Of a stretch of DNA of 26,681 nucleotides, positions 4,280 through 26,370 are shown piece by piece. Origin of the DNA: a virus; the IMG/VR virus record IMGVR_UViG_3300005515_000666, positions 1-26,681 of that record; one strand, given 5' to 3'. The notes beneath the pieces were generated by a model. That model saw nothing but the letters and a program-made list of their open reading frames with translations, was not told the origin of the DNA and searched no databases. Position numbers and translations under genes: made by a program. How positions within the stretch are numbered: position 1 is the stretch's first letter; every line of letters begins with the position of its first letter.

Positions 4280-4307
4280 GGGGCTCCGTGGCGAGCCCCG
4301 CGGGCTC
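4280..4307 (-). promoter_or_regulatory. alternative hairpins over the tail fibre ribosome binding site
   Basis: Between the terminase stop (4306-4308) and the tail fibre ATG, three segments can pair in two exclusive ways in the leftward mRNA. Segment 1 is GAGCCC (4307-4302), segment 2 is GGGGCTC (4299-4293) and segment 3 is GAGCCCC (4286-4280). Pairing 1 with 2 gives a 6-bp stem with a 3-base loop. Pairing 2 with 3 gives a 7-bp stem with a 6-base loop that buries most of the GGAG ribosome site (4287-4284). A ribosome ending terminase translation would sit on segments 1 and 2. A translational switch is an inference; the pairings are exact in the sequence. Confidence 0.45.
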
Positions 4308-5928
4308 AGTCTTCGAGCGCTGCCTCGTAGACGCCCGACGTTGGGCGCCAATCGTCCCCGCGGTCGGGGTCTACGTTCTCGCCCAATTGCCCGATCCGGG
4401 CTGGCTGGTCGGTGACCGCACCGGAGCCGGCGTCCAGCAGGTCGTCCGGCTGCTGCTTCACGGCGGGGTTCCAGTCCTTGGCCTGGTCCCAGAGCGGTCC
4501 GTTCAGGACGTCGAGGTGCGCCCACAGCATGTCGGAGTCGATCAGTGGGCTCAACGCCTCCAGGATCCGAACGTTCTTGTTCTCGGTGGCGTTCACCTCG
4601 GCCACGCCACACCGGACGCGGCGCTGCTTCAGCGCGGTCTTGAGCAACCCCGGTGCCAGTTGCCCGATGCCGTTCGTCTCGATCGTCACACGAGGCACCT
4701 TGAACTGAACGATGAGGTCGACCAACTGCACCACCTGGCCGCTGATGATCTTGTCGCCGCGGTCGTTTGTCTTCGCCACAGGCCCGGTCAGCTCCAGCAC
4801 GCGGTGCCAGTAGTGCCGGCCCGCAGCGTCCTGCAGGTCCAGCACTGCCGCCGACACGTCGCTGTTCACCTTGCCTCCGGCCGGATCCCACCGGAGCGAG
4901 CAGCCGACGATCTGGGTGTTGCCCAGCCACATGGTCAGCCGGCGGTTCTGCATGAGGAAGCGCGGCTCGCAGTCGTACGCATTGATCCGCGACGGGTCGA
5001 TTCGGATCTGGTGCACCGGCCGGCTGTGCAACTGGTACTGGCTGTCCCAGTAGTTCGCGGTCTTCGTCTTGCGGCGGCGCTTCTGCAGGTCGTCCCGAGT
5101 GAACCGCTCGGGCCACGCGCAGCCGGCGTAGAAGTCGAGCAGCCCACCTGGCGCCTTCTTGACCTTGACCGTCGCACCCTGACGCACGTAGTCCCGACCC
5201 TCAACCAGCAGACGCGAGCCTTTCCCGATTCCGAGGAACACGTACTCCGGCGCGAACGGCACGGTGTAGCTGGTGGCCCTCGCGTCGTCGATGCGGTGCT
5301 CACGCTCGAACAGCGGGATCGTGAGGCAGTCAGCGCCCAGGGCTTCCTGCTTGTCATACAGGGAGTCGTGGGTGTGCGGCGTGCCAACGAACAGCTGCCG
5401 GCCGCCGGGCACCAGAATGAAGGTCTGCTCGCCCAGGCGGTACTCGAGCTTCTCCCGCGCCTCCGGCGTCTGGATGTTGCGAGGGACCTCGACGTCGTCG
5501 TTCTGGCACTCGTCAGCCCGGGCGCTGGTGACGTTCGACAGGATGCCCTTGGCATACATGCTGCCGTTGCGGGGGTCCTCGTTCCCCACGACCCACCACT
5601 GTTCCACGCCCCCCTCACGAAAGAGGTTGCGCGTGAGCGGGTGAGCACGCAGGACGGCCTGCGTGTCCCGACTGGTCTTGTAAGCGGTGCCGTCGGCCTC
5701 CGACTGGTGGAGGATCCGGTACAGGGGGTCGTCGTAGAACCGCCATGCGTTGTAGACGGCCAGGATGGTCGACTTCGCGAAGCCGCGGAAGCACCGAAGC
5801 ACGGCGAGGTCGCCGCGCTTCGGCATCCAGTCGATCACCACCCAGTGGACGTCAGGGACGGTCCACCGGCGGTGCTCCGCCCACATTGCATAGAAGGCGG
5901 GGAAACTGACCTTGGTCTTAGCGGGCAT
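4306..5928 (-). CDS. terminase large subunit, T7-like (DNA maturase B)
   Basis: 540 aa, the packaging motor ATPase and nuclease that docks on the portal. The ATPase shows a Walker A-like RCFRGFAKST (about residues 45-54, Lys52) and an acidic Walker B-like region ADECQNDDVE (138-147). The RNase H-like nuclease has WDPAGGKVNSD (Asp348 and Asp357), TIETNG (Glu417) and a late acidic group DDLLDA (495-500). The start at 5928 overlaps the small terminase stop by 11 bases. Terminases placed next to the internal virion proteins and just before the tail fibre are an ordinary rearrangement of the T7 order. A candidate regulatory motif is embedded near the 3' end (4372-4388). Confidence 0.93.
   Translation of the reverse strand: MPAKTKVSFPAFYAMWAEHRRWTVPDVHWVVIDWMPKRGDLAVLRCFRGFAKSTILAVYNAWRFYDDPLYRILHQSEADGTAYKTSRDTQAVLRAHPLTRNLFREGGVEQWWVVGNEDPRNGSMYAKGILSNVTSARADECQNDDVEVPRNIQTPEAREKLEYRLGEQTFILVPGGRQLFVGTPHTHDSLYDKQEALGADCLTIPLFEREHRIDDARATSYTVPFAPEYVFLGIGKGSRLLVEGRDYVRQGATVKVKKAPGGLLDFYAGCAWPERFTRDDLQKRRRKTKTANYWDSQYQLHSRPVHQIRIDPSRINAYDCEPRFLMQNRRLTMWLGNTQIVGCSLRWDPAGGKVNSDVSAAVLDLQDAAGRHYWHRVLELTGPVAKTNDRGDKIISGQVVQLVDLIVQFKVPRVTIETNGIGQLAPGLLKTALKQRRVRCGVAEVNATENKNVRILEALSPLIDSDMLWAHLDVLNGPLWDQAKDWNPAVKQQPDDLLDAGSGAVTDQPARIGQLGENVDPDRGDDWRPTSGVYEAALED
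4372..4388 (-). promoter_or_regulatory. repeat motif site C (candidate phage promoter), ahead of tail fibre
   Basis: The minus strand reads AATTGGGCGAGAACGTA and matches 16 of 17 bases of site B, differing by one centre shift (AATT for ATTT) and one base (G for C). It lies in the terminase coding sequence (GQLGENVD), 96 bases before the tail fibre start. Because it is coding, chance or protein constraint could explain it better than for the two intergenic copies. It lacks the second box AACTWGACACT seen at sites A and B. Confidence 0.35.
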
Positions 5929-14073: not shown

Positions 14074-14526
14074 CTATGCTCCCAACATGATGCCGAAGCG
14101 CTTGAGGCCCAGGGCCTCGTACAGCTTGGCGGTTTTCTCGGTCAGCTCGTCGCTGATGTCGGTGCTGATCCCGACCGTGGCGAGCTTCGCGCCCACCTCG
14201 CCCTTCCAGGCGATGAAGCGCTTGATGAGGCCTGCGGCGATGAACGAGCCGCGGTGTTCCGGGTCGACGTACAGGGCAAGCTCGCAGATCACCAGGTCGT
14301 CGCTGCACCAGTAGTCGGTGGCGAAGGCCAGCATCACGCCGACCACCTGCCCGTCGCGCTCGGCCACTCGAAGGAAGCCGAGCGGGCTGTCCAGCACGGC
14401 CAGCAGCGTCCGCTCGAGCTTTGCGCGCGAGAACGTGATCGGCGTGAAGTGGGGAGCCTCGGCGTGCATGCGCTCGCCCATGTCCAGCAGCGCCGGCAAG
14501 TCGGAGAGGTTGGCGGTTCGGTTCAT
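14074..14526 (-). CDS. GNAT-fold acetyltransferase-like protein, gp13 position
   Basis: 150 aa. The GNAT layout is visible: an N-terminal helix pair, GFLRVAERDGQVVGVMLAF (strand-turn-strand), DLVICELALYVDPEHRGSFIAAGLIKRFIAW (the beta4 strand plus the acetyl-CoA loop region, with EHRGSFIA in place of the usual Q/RxxGxG/A) and KLYEALGLKRFGI at the end. A GNAT-like protein between tail tubular protein B and gp14 is a recurring T7-like arrangement; T7 gp13 itself is related to this fold. Substrate is unknown, and the protein may serve virion assembly rather than catalysis. The start at 14526 overlaps the previous stop (ATGA). It ends in TAG. Confidence 0.8.
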   Translation of the reverse strand: MNRTANLSDLPALLDMGERMHAEAPHFTPITFSRAKLERTLLAVLDSPLGFLRVAERDGQVVGVMLAFATDYWCSDDLVICELALYVDPEHRGSFIAAGLIKRFIAWKGEVGAKLATVGISTDISDELTEKTAKLYEALGLKRFGIMLGA

Positions 14527-16742
14527 CCTGCGTTGACCGATATGGTGCGGACAACCGAAAGCACGGTCCACTTCTGCCCCTGGTCCTGGACTAGTTCCAG
14601 GTCCACGCCATCGTCATCGTCCCAGCCAATCTCGGGCATCTCGAGCAGCCCGGTCACGGGATCCGGCGCTTGGTCCAACGTGTGATCCGTGTCGAAGGCC
14701 CGGAACGCCACCTCGGCGCCGTTGATCTTCATGCCGACCGAATCGTGCACCCGAACCTGCACGCGGTTCACGCTCTTGGCCTGGCCGGTGCTGGTTCCGG
14801 TACCGGTGCCCAACTCCGGCGGCGGCAGCACAATGCGCGCGGTGTACGGCAGCCCAGCCACCACGGTGACCGCTGGGTCGTCGAGCGTGATCACGCCGGC
14901 GCCGCTGACAGTCTTCGTTCCCAGGTAGATGGCGTCGCCCATCACCGAGACCTCGCGGCCGGCCAGGGCGTCGAAGCCGGTCGCGTTGGTGGTCGGAATG
15001 CCGAAGGTGCGTTCCACACGGCCGTCGTAGAACCCGAAGAGCGACCCGGTGCCCACCTTCCAGTTCAGCCGCTCGATGCGGCGCGTCGGCGTGCCGTTGA
15101 TCGTCCGCAGCACCACCGCGTCGGTCACGTCCGCATCGGCCGTCGGGATCGTCGACAGCGACTCCACCACCCCATCCGTGCTGCCGCCGGCCCACGCCAG
15201 CGTGTTCTGCTCGCGGTTGTAGGTGAAGGCCAGCAGCTTCCCGCTGTTCGTGCACACCCACACCACCGAGTTCGGCCGGCGCTCGTAACTGATCTCGCGG
15301 ATGCCGTCGGCGATGAGGTGCTCGGAGAAGACCGACACATCCGTGCTGTCGTAACCGTCGACCTGCTGCGGGAACAGCACCCGCACCGCGCGGCCGCCGC
15401 GCTCCACGAACACAATCTCTTTGCCGACCGTCATCGGCCGGATCGGCGCGCAGCCCCACTCGCTCTGCGCGTTGATCTGTATGTTCGTCTGGGTGATGGG
15501 CTTCTCGATGCCGCCCTTGCCTTCCAGCTCGGCGCCGTACCCGAGCATCACCAGCGTGCCGGCGCCGCAGAGGTACGCGAGCGGGTTCACTTCGTCCGTG
15601 GCCGCCGCCGTCTTGTAGACGGCCGAGTCGTCGTCGGTTCCGGGGGTGAAGTCGAAGTAGAGCGCGGTGCGCGAGCCCCACATCGACTGCGGGTAGGTGG
15701 TCGTGTTCCCGAACCACAGCCGCTGCTGGTAGAACGCGCATGTCTTCGGGTAGCCGCGGGTGTCGGACCAGATCGGCCGCAGCACTACCCACGCGTCGGC
15801 GGGTGCCGCCACCACGCTGGTCAGCTCGCGGACGATCACCGCGTCCACCACCGTGGCCGACGTCACGCCGATGATGCGCACCAGGCCGCCGTTGAGCTCC
15901 ACTAGGCTGCCCACGTCGTCGCGCCAGCCGTCCACGCCGAGTGTCACCGTGATGGCCGCGCCGACCGGATCCTTGCCGCTCGCTGTCGCCGTCGTCATCG
16001 GGGAGCCGAGCAGCGTCCACACCGGGCCGAGGTTGATCGAGGGGTAGCCGGTGAGGTCGAAGAACTCGGCCGTCACCGTAGCCGTTGCGCTGACGGCAGA
16101 GCCCACGGCCGTGATCAGCGCCGTGCCGCCGCCCCAGGTGATCTCCCGGTTCACGTCACTGGCGAGGAAGAAGTTCCCGCTGGCGGCGAGCGTGCGGCCG
16201 GCGCCCACGGCGCCGTTGTTGATCGTGATGTTCACCGCGGCCTGGTTGCCCACCTCGGCCACCGGCGCCGGCTTCAACGGCGCAAGGTCCAGCACCCACC
16301 GTGCATCGGCGAACCGGCGCAGGCGGCGCGGGAAGTGCGAGCCGTGGGCGATGATCATCGTGTCTTCGCCCTGGGTGAAGTCCAGCTCGAAGGCTTCCGC
16401 CGCGGTGTACGGCGACGCGATCTCGTACGGCACGTTCGGTGCCGTCTCCACGAGAGTGCCGTTGGCGCGCAGCACCCGAATGTAGTTCTGTCCCACCTCG
16501 AGCTGGTAGGCGTCGGTCCGGGAGTAGACGAACCGGACGAGTCGCGCTTGGCTGACGGCGAACTTCGTCGACGCGATCATCTGCAGCGGCGGCCGGATGG
16601 TGGCGCCGCCCTGCTTCAGCACCACCACGTTTTCGAGCTTCTTGGCGGACGAGTTGTACTTCTCGATGTCGGTGCGGCCGGCCAGCAGCGGGGAGAACTC
16701 GCCGCCGGTGAAGTTGGTGGTCGCGATCTCCAGCTTAGGCAT
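14523..16742 (-). CDS. tail tubular protein B (nozzle), gp12-like
   Basis: 739 aa, close to the size of T7 gp12. The N-terminus TNFTGGEFSPLLAGRTDIEKY followed by KKLENVVVLKQGGATIRPP is the hallmark of this family, which forms the hexameric nozzle below the adaptor ring. The remainder is beta-rich with repeated short Gly/Thr/Val strands. The start at 16742 overlaps tail tubular protein A by 8 bases, and its stop overlaps the GNAT start. The minus-strand frame at 14614-16020 is a shadow with Arg/Gly-rich composition. Confidence 0.92.
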   Translation of the reverse strand: MPKLEIATTNFTGGEFSPLLAGRTDIEKYNSSAKKLENVVVLKQGGATIRPPLQMIASTKFAVSQARLVRFVYSRTDAYQLEVGQNYIRVLRANGTLVETAPNVPYEIASPYTAAEAFELDFTQGEDTMIIAHGSHFPRRLRRFADARWVLDLAPLKPAPVAEVGNQAAVNITINNGAVGAGRTLAASGNFFLASDVNREITWGGGTALITAVGSAVSATATVTAEFFDLTGYPSINLGPVWTLLGSPMTTATASGKDPVGAAITVTLGVDGWRDDVGSLVELNGGLVRIIGVTSATVVDAVIVRELTSVVAAPADAWVVLRPIWSDTRGYPKTCAFYQQRLWFGNTTTYPQSMWGSRTALYFDFTPGTDDDSAVYKTAAATDEVNPLAYLCGAGTLVMLGYGAELEGKGGIEKPITQTNIQINAQSEWGCAPIRPMTVGKEIVFVERGGRAVRVLFPQQVDGYDSTDVSVFSEHLIADGIREISYERRPNSVVWVCTNSGKLLAFTYNREQNTLAWAGGSTDGVVESLSTIPTADADVTDAVVLRTINGTPTRRIERLNWKVGTGSLFGFYDGRVERTFGIPTTNATGFDALAGREVSVMGDAIYLGTKTVSGAGVITLDDPAVTVVAGLPYTARIVLPPPELGTGTGTSTGQAKSVNRVQVRVHDSVGMKINGAEVAFRAFDTDHTLDQAPDPVTGLLEMPEIGWDDDDGVDLELVQDQGQKWTVLSVVRTISVNAG

Positions 16743-18720: not shown

Positions 18721-18903
18721 TTCTGAACTCCGAGGGTGTTGAGGTTCAGCCTTGGGTCAGGTTGTCCTTGCGGGCCTGCGCTACGGGTCGGACGGCCGGC
18801 TTGTCACGCCGTCGACCTCGGGCATTCAGGTTGTCCGCTCGCCACTGCGGGCCTGTGAATGGCTCGCAGTGTCAAGTTGAGGGCGGATACGATCTCGCCC
18901 AAA
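18721..18903 (-). promoter_or_regulatory. capsid gene leader with bipartite direct repeats
   Basis: This is the longest non-coding stretch in the structural block. It carries two copies of a two-part element on the plus strand: TCAGGTTGTCC plus TGCGGGCCTG at 18757-18778 (1 base between parts) and at 18826-18855 (9 bases between parts). Near the start codon, CTGAAC/GTTCAG (18723-18728 and 18744-18749) can pair around a loop that contains the GGAG ribosome site. Regulatory site A lies at the upstream end. The repeats may be protein-binding sites or RNA structure controlling the most highly made protein; function is inferred only from place. Confidence 0.5.
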
Positions 18904-21154: not shown

Positions 21155-22810
21155 CTATGCTGCGGAGGCCATGCGCTGAGCCATGGCGTCCTGTTCCGTG
21201 ACCTGGGCCTGCATCTGCATGGCCTGCTGCTGCTGAGCCTGGGCGGCGTCGGCCTTGGCCTTGCGCACCAGCGCGGTGGCGCGCTTGTCGCGCACCAGCT
21301 TCTGCGGCACGCCCAGCAGCAGGCCGCGCTCGCGCTCGCCCTCCTCCCAGTCGTACACGTCCAGCACCGATGGATCGACCTGCGCAGCCTGGACCAGAGA
21401 CATCTCGTAGCGGTCCATGGCGTCCACGTCGCCGAGCTTCTGCGCACGAGCGAGCGGCGACAGGTACCGGATCGTGAAGTTCCGGTTCGACAGCGATTGC
21501 GGCGGCCGGCCCACCAGCGTGAAGCCGTTGCGAGCGTTGGCCCGCCACATCAGACCGAAGGCGCGCTCGATCAGCGCCTGCAGGAACTCGGACTGGAAGC
21601 GGCCGAACATCGGGCCGAGCATCTGGCGCAGCGCCTGGACGCGCACGCTCCACTCGTAGGCCGTGCGCACCTGGCCCTCGGCCGGCGGCAGCTGGTCGGC
21701 CAGGAGAATCTTCCGGATCGACGCGCGCAGGTCGTCGACGGTGAGCATGCCGGTCTGCACGTTGGCGCCCGTGATGAGCGGCTTCATGCTGTCGACGTCG
21801 TCGGCGACGATGATCCGGCGAGGGCCCAGCTTGATGGTGCGCGGGTTCAGCACGCCGTCGTCCTTGGCGATCATCGGCGGTGCGATGGCCGTCTCGGCGC
21901 CCATCAGCGTCCACTTCTTCGCTTCGTTCAGGGACATCACGTCGGGCAGCGCGTCCGACATCGGGCCGGTGGCGTACGCCGAACCCGGCAGGCGCATCCA
22001 GCGCGGCACCATGCACGGGAACTCGTGGAAGCCAGACTCGCGCAGCAGGTGGCCGCTCGACTCCTCGACGTGGCACGAACTGAACGGCATGTTCTTCGCC
22101 GTGCGGCTGTTCACGTCGTAGAGCTGCCGCGGCTCGATGGCGTGCACGATGCACACCTTCTCGTCGAACTGCTCGTTGTCGTACTTCTTCCGCGTGTCCT
22201 CGCTGCAGTTGTCGTACCCGAAGGTCAGCACGCACTGGCTGACCGAGTAGGAGTACTTGCGGAAGACCGTGTCGACCAGGCCGCCGCTGCGCGAGCTGGC
22301 GACACAGCACTCGCCCACGGGCCACGCCTCAAAGTAGAAGCCGCCCTCGGGCTTCTCGTCGAGGAACAGCACGAACCAGCCGGCCACGAACTCGTCGATC
22401 ATGCCGTCGCAGGCCTCGGCGTCGAAGTTCGATGCGTGGATGTTCTCCCAGATGAACTTCGCAGCGTCCTCCAGCCAGCGCCGTTCCTCCTCGGACTCGT
22501 TGCCCACGTCCAGGCCGAACCACAGCGCGTTCGCCGGGACCATGGCGCCCATGAGGGTGGCCACGCCCGTCTTCACGCTGTCGGGCGCCGTGCTGTCGTA
22601 GATGCGCGCCTTCTGCTGTTGCGCCTCGGTGGCGGTCAGCATGTCCGACTCAAGCCCCGCGCCACGCGTCGGGTAGGTCATGCGGTAGCAGTTCGCCCAC
22701 ACGGGGACGTGCAGCTGCTTGGCCGCCATGAGTTCGGACCAGCGCTTCTTGATCCGCGTGGCGATGGCCGCGCGCGGGGTGGCGCCACGAACGGCGGGGG
22801 CGATGACCAT
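21155..22810 (-). CDS. portal (head-tail connector) protein, T7-like
   Basis: 551 aa, normal for the podoviral head-to-tail connector family (T7 gp8). Recognisable pieces are RIKKRWSELMAAKQLHVPVW and SAYATGPMSDALPDVMSLNE near the middle, QLPPAEGQVRTAYEWSVRVQ, MFGRFQSEFLQALIERAF and LSPLARAQKLGDVDAMDRYE. The C-terminus is Gln/Ala-rich. It forms the dodecameric ring through which DNA is packed and ejected. The start at 22810 shares a TGATG junction with the upstream gene, and the stop is TAG. One segment, GPRRIIVADDVDSMKPL, resembles part of the small zinc-ribbon protein at 24144-24347. Confidence 0.93.
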   Translation of the reverse strand: MVIAPAVRGATPRAAIATRIKKRWSELMAAKQLHVPVWANCYRMTYPTRGAGLESDMLTATEAQQQKARIYDSTAPDSVKTGVATLMGAMVPANALWFGLDVGNESEEERRWLEDAAKFIWENIHASNFDAEACDGMIDEFVAGWFVLFLDEKPEGGFYFEAWPVGECCVASSRSGGLVDTVFRKYSYSVSQCVLTFGYDNCSEDTRKKYDNEQFDEKVCIVHAIEPRQLYDVNSRTAKNMPFSSCHVEESSGHLLRESGFHEFPCMVPRWMRLPGSAYATGPMSDALPDVMSLNEAKKWTLMGAETAIAPPMIAKDDGVLNPRTIKLGPRRIIVADDVDSMKPLITGANVQTGMLTVDDLRASIRKILLADQLPPAEGQVRTAYEWSVRVQALRQMLGPMFGRFQSEFLQALIERAFGLMWRANARNGFTLVGRPPQSLSNRNFTIRYLSPLARAQKLGDVDAMDRYEMSLVQAAQVDPSVLDVYDWEEGERERGLLLGVPQKLVRDKRATALVRKAKADAAQAQQQQAMQMQAQVTEQDAMAQRMASAA

Positions 22811-23965: not shown

Positions 23966-24147
23966 GACTGGGCGTCGCAGGTGCTGGAGGTGATGTCGTC
24001 GGGCTGGAGGCTGAGCGAGAACCACCGGACATCGGGCGTGTCCAGGGCGCTGTGGATCGCGGCCGCTGCGGCCTTGAGCCAACGACGCGCGCGCGCCCGG
24101 CGGAGCTGGCGCGCGGTGATCTGGCTACGGCGGGCGCGAGGCTTCAT
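23962..24147 (-). CDS. 61-aa basic small protein
   Basis: The N-terminal half is very basic (MKPRARRSQITARQLRRARARRWLK), then an Ala-rich helix, then a neutral C-terminus (RWFSLSLQPDDITSSTCDAQS). The basic helix suggests nucleic-acid binding, but no family is recognised. ATGA overlaps at both ends tie it to its neighbours, which is the main support that it is real. Confidence 0.6.
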   Translation of the reverse strand: MKPRARRSQITARQLRRARARRWLKAAAAAIHSALDTPDVRWFSLSLQPDDITSSTCDAQS

Positions 24148-24347
24148 GCCATCGTCCCGCAGTAGCTACACACGGGCTCGTGCGGAGCGCCACAGTTCAC
24201 GCAGTTGCGTGGTGGCGGCAAGGCACGTGGTAGCGGCTTGAGCGCGTCCATCGAATCGCAGACCACGATCTTGCGTGGTCCGACGTCGATGGCGCGGACA
24301 CCGTACAGCTTCGACGGGTCGACCATGAAAGAGGGACCACAGCCCAT
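24144..24347 (-). CDS. 67-aa zinc-ribbon protein with a portal-like segment
   Basis: The C-terminus has Cys49-x2-Cys52-x7-Cys60-x2-Cys63 (NCVNCGAPHEPVCSYCG), a compact zinc-ribbon pattern. The preceding segment VGPRKIVVCDSMDALKPL resembles portal residues LGPRRIIVADDVDSMKPL in both sequence and hydropathy. The start at 24347 (MGCGPSFMVDPSKLYG) shares TGATG with the upstream stop, and its own stop overlaps the next ATG, so translation is coupled. Function is unknown; zinc ribbons often bind nucleic acid or protein. Upstream frame to 24677 belongs to other genes. Confidence 0.7.
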   Translation of the reverse strand: MGCGPSFMVDPSKLYGVRAIDVGPRKIVVCDSMDALKPLPRALPPPRNCVNCGAPHEPVCSYCGTMA

Positions 24348-24550
24348 CACGCAGGCCCCTTGAACCGCCACGCCCAGGCGATGACGGCCTGCATCGGGCG
24401 CAGGAGAAGCGGCGGGTACGGCGCAGTGCCCGCTAGGCGCGGGAACTTGGTCCAGTCGTGGAAGTTGCGTGGGTTCATGGCGTTCTGGACGGTGGGCGGG
24501 CGGCAAAACGCGCGCGCGGGCGCGAGGGAGCGGGGTTGCACGTGGCTCAC
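24347..24550 (-). CDS. 67-aa hypothetical protein (GTG start)
   Basis: I choose GTG at 24550 because it overlaps the preceding TGA (GTGA) and has CGGAG about 7 bases upstream. The later in-frame ATG at 24478 would give 43 aa with no ribosome site. The sequence runs SHVQPRSLAPARAFCRPPTV, then NFHDWTKFPRLAGTAPYPPL, and ends AVIAWAWRFKGPA. Tryptophan- and proline-rich, without a known motif. Coupled at both ends to its neighbours. Confidence 0.55.
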   Translation of the reverse strand: MSHVQPRSLAPARAFCRPPTVQNAMNPRNFHDWTKFPRLAGTAPYPPLLLRPMQAVIAWAWRFKGPA

Positions 24551-24765
24551 CAGCGGTCTCCGTAGATCTCGCGCCCATAGGCATCGAACGCGTCGCGCTC
24601 GTCTTGCTGCTCTTGGCACAAGGCGCTGAAGGCTCGGTCACACTAGGGCTTGGGGCACACGGCAGCTGACACGCCATGCCACCAGTGGAGTCCGTTCTCT
24701 GCCTTGCACGTGACGCAGCGCCAGACGGGTTTGCCGTGCAGCGCGTTGATTTCGTCAGGGTTCAT
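24547..24765 (-). pseudogene. zinc-knuckle small gene interrupted by an in-frame TAG
   Basis: From ATG at 24765 (overlapping the previous stop as ATGA) the frame reads 40 codons, starting MNPDEINALHGKPVWRCVTC, to TAG at 24643-24645. It then continues for 31 well-behaved codons (CDRAFSALCQEQQDERDAFD, AYGREIYGDRW) to TGA at 24547-24549. Reading through gives four cysteines as Cys-x2-Cys-x16-Cys-x4-Cys with the TAG inside the last knuckle (CPKP-stop-CDRAF), so the stop breaks a metal site. The next gene starts exactly at the distal TGA (GTGA), which supports the longer gene. One base change (for example from GAG, CAG or AAG) would create the TAG. It may be a recent mutation, a sequencing error or suppressed read-through. 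Confidence 0.65.
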
Positions 24766-25061
24766 GCCGCCCCACGCGAAGACTCGATAGCCTTGCGGAT
24801 CACGTCGTCCGCTGTGATCGGGGGACCGACCACACCCCGGCGGACCAGGACCGGCGTGAGCGACTTGACCACCTCGAGCAAGCTCTCGGTCGTGCCTACA
24901 GCGACCACTCGGAGGTCGCCGGGTTCATCGGCCAGACATGCCCTCCGGTTTTCGGTCAGCACGTCCGAGAGCTTTTCGATCTTCACCAGGTTGTCGCGCT
25001 GGCTCCAGACCAACGCCATCATGTCGAAGTTGGTTGCCTTGGCCGTGCCGTTCATGATCAT
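24762..25061 (-). CDS. 99-aa hypothetical protein
   Basis: A soluble protein that starts MIMNGTAKATNFDMMALVWS and has an Asp/Glu/Leu-rich helical middle (KIEKLSDVLTENRRACLADE), a strand-like DLRVVAVGTTESLLEVV, and a C-terminal helix TADDVIRKAIESS. The pattern could be a small alpha/beta domain, but no family is recognised. AAGGA lies 8 bases before the ATG at 25061, directly after the helicase stop. A second ATG at 25055 is possible. The frame to 25889 is a shadow of the helicase gene. Confidence 0.65.
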   Translation of the reverse strand: MIMNGTAKATNFDMMALVWSQRDNLVKIEKLSDVLTENRRACLADEPGDLRVVAVGTTESLLEVVKSLTPVLVRRGVVGPPITADDVIRKAIESSRGAA

Positions 25062-25072
25062 GAGGTTCGTCC

Positions 25073-26023
25073 TTACTCGTCCCCATGGGGGAAGTTGAAG
25101 AAGTTGAGGGTTTGAGCGTTTGGGCTCGGGATGTACTGCTGCGACTCCTTGTGGAACCACAACTGGATGCGGTTCTCCCACTCGCCGTTGCGCTGCTTCT
25201 CGCAGATCACGAGGGCATCGGGCTCGGTCTCCGAAACCATCTTCCCGGCGGCGAGGTTGCGCTCCTTGGGCTTGTTGCGCCACACGAGCAGGAGGTTGTC
25301 GACTTGGTCGACGATGGAGCCGGAGCCCTTCACGTCCATCTTGTCGGGGGTCTCGCTCTCCTCTCGCAGCTTCTTGAGGTGATGCACCAGGTGGATGTGC
25401 ATCCCGGTGTCCTTGGCGATGGCGGTCAGCTCGTCGACGAAGCGCTTCTGGCCGTTGTAGTCGTCCTCGTCGGCCACGCACTTCATCAGACTGTCGATGA
25501 AGAACTGCTGGATGCCGAGCTCGTTGGCGCAGTACCTGAGGACGGCCAGGAGCCTGTCGGTCTTCACGGTGCCCTGCTGGTCGTACAGCCACATGTACCG
25601 GCCGGACCAGTCGCGGAACTGCTCGTACAGGTCGCGAGCCCCGGCCATCACGGCCTCGTCCGCCAGCTCCTCCGCCGTCGGCGCAGTCTGGCCGGTCCAC
25701 TGGCGCATCATTCGCTCGAGCGTCCGGTGCGGCTTCATCTCGAAGCTGGCGATGCAGACACGCTGCTCCTGAGCGCACAGGCTCAAGGCGGTCATGCCGG
25801 TCATCATCGACTTGCCCTGCCCGTTCACGCCGGCCCACAGCGTCACTTCGCCCGGCCGGAACTGGAACAGTCGGTGGGTCTTGGCCCACGGCAGCAGCGA
25901 GTGCGGCGAGACCTTCACCACGCCGAGGTCGTCGATCATGTCCTGCACGAACACGTGGGCCGGCCGGACCTTCTGCTTCGGATCGGTCTCGGCCATGTAC
26001 TTCGCGAAGTCCGCCGCGGTCAT
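25073..26023 (-). CDS. DnaB/gp4-type replicative helicase (RecA fold), no primase domain
   Basis: 316 aa. Numbered from the ATG at 26023: Walker A GVNGQGKS (65-72), motif 1a SFEMKPHRTLERMM (93-106), Walker B FFIDSL (174-179), His motif HLVHHLKK (211-218), the DNA-loop region KGSGSIVDQVDNLL (232-245) and KQRNGEW (276-282), which supplies the usual K-x-R-x-G element. These are the hexameric helicase motifs of DnaB and T7 gp4. The DnaB N-terminal domain and a primase domain are absent. A GTG start at 26038 would add five residues; the ATG is preferred as it sits two bases after the upstream stop. It should unwind the phage replication fork. Confidence 0.88.
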   Translation of the reverse strand: MTAADFAKYMAETDPKQKVRPAHVFVQDMIDDLGVVKVSPHSLLPWAKTHRLFQFRPGEVTLWAGVNGQGKSMMTGMTALSLCAQEQRVCIASFEMKPHRTLERMMRQWTGQTAPTAEELADEAVMAGARDLYEQFRDWSGRYMWLYDQQGTVKTDRLLAVLRYCANELGIQQFFIDSLMKCVADEDDYNGQKRFVDELTAIAKDTGMHIHLVHHLKKLREESETPDKMDVKGSGSIVDQVDNLLLVWRNKPKERNLAAGKMVSETEPDALVICEKQRNGEWENRIQLWFHKESQQYIPSPNAQTLNFFNFPHGDE

Positions 26024-26025
26024 GT

Positions 26026-26370
26026 TCACTCGGTCCACGTCAGCACCCCCTTGGAGTCGGTGACTTCGACGACGACGGTCTCACCGTTGGCCAGCCGCCG
26101 ATGCACGCTCGCGATCACCCGCGTTGCCCCCGCGTCGCTGCAGGCCTGGGCGAACGCCTTGGTCCGGCCACCGTTCTCCCCGGACACGCACACGGGCAGG
26201 CCGTGCACGCACCTCAGGTCGACTCCGGAGAGACGGTCTGAGTCCTCGACCAGCACGTGACCGACGTCGAGCAGATCAAGCGGGATGCGGGGCAAGTCGA
26301 GGTCGACGAACACCATCGACACCGCCGTGCCGCGCTTGCGGGCCGTCACCAGTTCCTCGGCGCCGCGCAT
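26026..26370 (-). CDS. 114-aa hypothetical protein of the replication module
   Basis: The protein starts MRGAEELVTARKRGTAVSMV and has the strand-like VFVDLDLPRI, HVLVEDSDRLSGVDLRCVHG and LPVCVSGENGGRTKAFAQAC, and ends in VVVEVTDSKGVLTWTE. It lies between the initiator-like and helicase genes, a position where similar small proteins occur in other phages; its role is unknown. The start at 26370 shares TGATG with the upstream stop. The frame to 26568 is a shadow extension. Confidence 0.65.
   Translation of the reverse strand: MRGAEELVTARKRGTAVSMVFVDLDLPRIPLDLLDVGHVLVEDSDRLSGVDLRCVHGLPVCVSGENGGRTKAFAQACSDAGATRVIASVHRRLANGETVVVEVTDSKGVLTWTE

Follow-up and report, generated by a model that had tools for sequence, protein, structure and literature searches.

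A small four-cysteine phage gene interrupted by an in-frame TAG codon, probably through a recent nonsense substitution

The window, meaning the whole stretch of 26,681 bases analysed here, is a fragment of a podovirus-like phage whose genome is incomplete. Among its genes (Table 1) is a small minus-strand frame interrupted by a TAG codon, its translation from position 24765 to 24547 reading MNPDEINALHGKPVWRCVTCKAENGLHWWHGVSAAVCPKP up to the TAG and CDRAFSALCQEQQDERDAFDAYGREIYGDRW from there to the distal stop; the plus-strand translation of 24547-24765 is irrelevant to it. The start of the frame overlaps the stop of the upstream gene in an ATGA (24765-24762), and its distal TGA stop overlaps the GTG of the next frame in a GTGA (24550-24547). 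G+C content at the three codon positions is similar in both halves (0.60/0.50/0.80 before the TAG; 0.68/0.45/0.77 after it), and the frame beyond the TAG is intact, with normal codon bias. With regard to re-initiation just past the TAG, the nearest GTG, contained in the sequence TAGTG, is directly followed by a TGA, and the in-frame start codon after that, a TTG, would yield a product of 24 residues.

Table 1. Features of the phage fragment that are considered in the text
Feature	Position	Strand	Remarks
Interrupted four-cysteine (zinc-knuckle-like) gene, 73 codons	24547..24765	-	Conventional product 40 aa
In-frame TAG, codon 41	24643..24645	-	Glu in five distinct relatives, Thr in one
Upstream small gene (ATG at 25061)	24762..25061	-	phrog_6104 match, E = 2.6e-9; function unknown
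Downstream small frame, GTG start	24347..24550	-	No family match; alternative start ATG 24478
DnaB-like replicative helicase	25073..26038	-	Nearest gene with a known function; bait for related phages
Portal-type connector	21155-22810		phrog_332; ends in TAG
Terminase large subunit	4306-5928		phrog_38
GNAT gene	14074-14571		Ends in TAG

A 67-residue protein is furthermore encoded at 24144-24347 on the minus strand, in which residues 4-39 resemble residues 310-345 of the portal of the same phage (36% identity over 36 residues; e-value: 1e-7, in a single comparison) and are followed by a zinc-ribbon-like CxxC...CxxC tail. This protein, for which no matches were obtained among annotated phages, is possibly a fragment of the portal joined to a zinc ribbon, or the resemblance is due to chance.

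Relatives of the interrupted gene were sought by tblastn with the read-through frame, by scanning IMG/VR for the motif WxCxxCxxxxGLHW and by a scan of GTDB genomes, and six distinct relatives were obtained, five from phage contigs and one from a Comamonadaceae MAG. The tblastn match in Curvibacter phage PCA1 covers both sides of the TAG (amino acid identity: 55% over 69 residues; e-value: 4e-20), the motif scan yielded L015, L016, L018/L022 (the same protein, counted once) and L020, and the GTDB scan yielded the MAG-encoded L025. Codon 41 specifies Glu (GAG or GAA) in PCA1, L015, L018/L022, L020 and L025 and Thr in L016, and the CCC TAG TGT of the window corresponds to CCC GAG TGT in L018/L022. 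All six proteins continue past this codon to about 68-73 residues. Since the read-through frame is matched across the TAG in PCA1 and five more distinct relatives, a chance joining of the two halves is ruled out by comparison. Sixteen alignment columns are invariant, including the four cysteines, which are arranged as Cys17-x2-Cys20-x16-Cys37-x4-Cys42. In L020 (3043-3288, minus strand) the conserved N-terminal SPEGIN is replaced in frame by SKRRVAW, where the gene overlaps the end of its upstream neighbour; this would reflect either an alternative N-terminus or a frameshift that occurred long ago. A match of L003 to the C-terminal 26 residues lies inside an unrelated frame and was rejected as chance, and no plasmid match to the protein of the interrupted gene was found.

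These results bear on an earlier note, made from the DNA letters of the window, which had described a 73-codon frame with TAG at codon 41 and ATGA and GTGA overlaps with its neighbours. All of these are present, on the minus strand. Its view that both sides of the TAG are coding agrees with the similar codon-position G+C and with the matches across the TAG, while the four-cysteine site that it expected read-through to restore corresponds to cysteines that are invariant among the relatives. The alignment of homologues at codon 41 that it proposed gives five with Glu and one with Thr. What it had named as evidence to the contrary, namely homologues uniformly terminating at the first stop, was not encountered (0/6).

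As a by-product, the comparisons delineate a small, previously unnamed four-cysteine family (HGKPxWxCxxC...GLHW...C....C; members L018, L022, L015, L016, L020, L025 and L004) that occurs in tailed phages unrelated to each other as well as in one MAG of the Comamonadaceae. The protein of the interrupted gene was assigned to no family in PHROGs, Pfam or NCBIfam, and the members tested showed none above the cut-off. When 401 genomes of the Comamonadaceae, to which the MAG belongs, were searched with a profile, no further true member emerged, a weak second match (L089) being rejected as chance, and the four-cysteine family is accordingly rare and found mainly in phages. The same profile, which recovers the known members as a control, detected no copy of the gene in eight phages related through the neighbouring helicase, some of whose records are fragments. 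This absence suggests that the gene is probably dispensable and its loss tolerated.

As modelled for an intact relative (mean pLDDT: 83.7; pTM: 0.59), the structure comprises a short helix, a β-hairpin (residues 26-29 and 32-35) and a long helix spanning residues 40-68. Its layout is suggestive of a treble-clef-like zinc finger, a fold with two cysteine pairs flanking a β-hairpin and the second pair placed where a helix begins, and this may be the most likely fold, with putative zinc binding by the four cysteines. Fold searches with the model returned no match at E <= 0.001, hits at E > 0.1 being taken as chance, as were papillomavirus L1 matches in a PDB sequence search (E >= 0.058). Codon 41 lies at the start of the long helix in the model, directly before Cys42, and the conventional 40-residue product consequently lacks both this fourth cysteine and the C-terminal long helix.

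We consider it quite probable that the TAG arose recently by an ordinary nonsense substitution, the gene affected being a rare accessory one of phages. The ancestral gene would have been such an accessory gene, encoding a protein of ~70 residues with one four-cysteine metal site. A single-base substitution in this phage lineage would then have converted codon 41, which encodes Glu in most relatives, to TAG, such that translation would stop after 40 residues, before either the fourth cysteine or the C-terminal helix is reached. As the zinc site should not form without the fourth cysteine, the gene is most likely inactive, and the remaining frame would have had too little time to decay. We infer the direction of the change, from sense codon to TAG, from an ancestral state deduced from relatives that are about 45-56% identical, as the search for strains of this phage with a sense codon (see below) yielded none. 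Stops within the reading frames of prokaryotic genes have been reported to persist mostly at the scale of population polymorphism and to be over-represented in the phage/transposon category (Belinky et al., PMC7918605), a description that suits the present case. Identity to the relatives, taken as the ratio of the part after the TAG to the part before it, amounts to 0.48-0.93 in the window and to 0.26-0.97 in intact pairs, and by this measure the 3′ part has not decayed beyond what is normal. As divergence after the TAG is no greater than in the intact relatives, the stop either arose recently or is followed by a 3′ part that remains in use. Besides the reliance on such distant relatives, it counts against a recent nonsense substitution that a TAG found in two contigs (see below) is not a fleeting private variant, and that the absence of 3′ decay is equally predicted by functional read-through.

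Leaky or programmed read-through by a near-cognate tRNA or a host suppressor would produce some full-length protein alongside the 40-residue form, with the stop acting as a down-regulator. The intact frame past the TAG, with its normal codon bias and undiminished similarity to relatives, is consistent with such a mechanism, as is the occurrence of the TAG in two contigs, and a possible role of stops of this kind in regulating expression has been argued for by Belinky et al. (PMC7918605). The 40-residue form furthermore ends in proline, and peptides with proline at the C-terminus are reported to be released more slowly (PMC7246954), which is a weak point in favour of read-through. However, all relatives carry a sense codon at position 41, and the truncated form without Cys42 has no counterpart among them. 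The RNA downstream of the TAG folds no better than shuffled sequences (z = +0.61), and the window encodes no amber suppressor tRNA, with only a tRNA-Asp called by ARAGORN and no tRNA reaching the Rfam gathering score. Given the sense codons of the relatives and the lack of a read-through-like element at the site, we prefer a recent nonsense substitution to programmed suppression, and we regard read-through, leaky or programmed, as unlikely. The more specific proposal of a maintained leaky stop that doses a zinc-finger protein, whereby a phage otherwise using the standard code would make a short and a read-through form from the same gene, appears less likely still. The tRNA-Asp (gtc) call itself (18769-18845, plus strand) lies between the capsid and scaffold genes and antisense to genes, and may be spurious, as it lacks Rfam support at the gathering score.

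A true sense codon could also have been misread as TAG during assembly or base calling, and the TAG is just one base removed from the GAG of relatives. However, a second IMG/VR contig, L002 (IMGVR_UViG_3300003794_000047), is identical to positions 26343-21107 of the window over all 5,237 bases (100%), the TAG included, and no further in-frame stop is present elsewhere in the window. A search of IMG/VR for strain variants with a sense codon, using a degenerate pattern over codons 37-46, returned only this identical contig. Given the second contig, the TAG is unlikely to be an error confined to a single assembly, though less clearly so if both contigs derive from the same reads, and we judge an artefact of either kind to be very improbable. 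The earlier note had entertained local suppression, a new mutation and a sequencing error; the second contig argues against the error as a feature of a single assembly, a recent nonsense mutation is now favoured, and programmed suppression is less so.

The earlier note had also observed that the portal and GNAT genes end in TAG, as both do, and that reading on from GNAT gives nonsense, and had on this basis doubted that TAG is recoded globally. Codon 41 is the sole in-frame TAG among 30 gene models (~8,400 codons), and reading on past the TAG of the portal and GNAT genes gives 9 residues or an out-of-frame overlap with the next gene. About half of code 15 phages lack an amber suppressor tRNA (PMC11210395). 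If TAG encoded an amino acid throughout the genome, as it does in code 15 phages, a single in-frame TAG in a gene with uninterrupted relatives would be accounted for, but such reassignment is rejected as almost certainly wrong, in line with that doubt, by the other gene models, by the TAG-terminated portal and GNAT genes and by the lack of a suppressor tRNA in the window.

The case illustrates how a stop in a small phage gene can be judged from its relatives, from a second assembly and from the use of TAG across the genome, which together point to a plain nonsense substitution; if read-through were nevertheless true, it would constitute a natural instance of dosing by a stop codon in a phage whose code is unchanged. 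The closest known counterpart is the hypothetical protein UZZ64559.1 of Curvibacter phage PCA1 (OP588919.1), which shares 55% identity across 69 residues and the same cysteines, and whose gene likewise overlaps its upstream neighbour. It is, however, intact, with Glu at codon 41 and an unknown function, and PCA1 is an unrelated tailed phage with an integrase. TAG-reassigned (code 15) phages, including some Crassvirales (PMC9523058, PMC11210395), similarly contain TAG inside phage genes, whereas here a single gene is affected, TAG also ends genes and no suppressor tRNA was found in the window. The in-frame stops described by Belinky et al. (2021; PMC7918605) resemble the present one as a single TAG in an otherwise intact phage gene that is evolutionarily recent, but they were retained only if present in two or more species, while the TAG described here occurs in one phage lineage.
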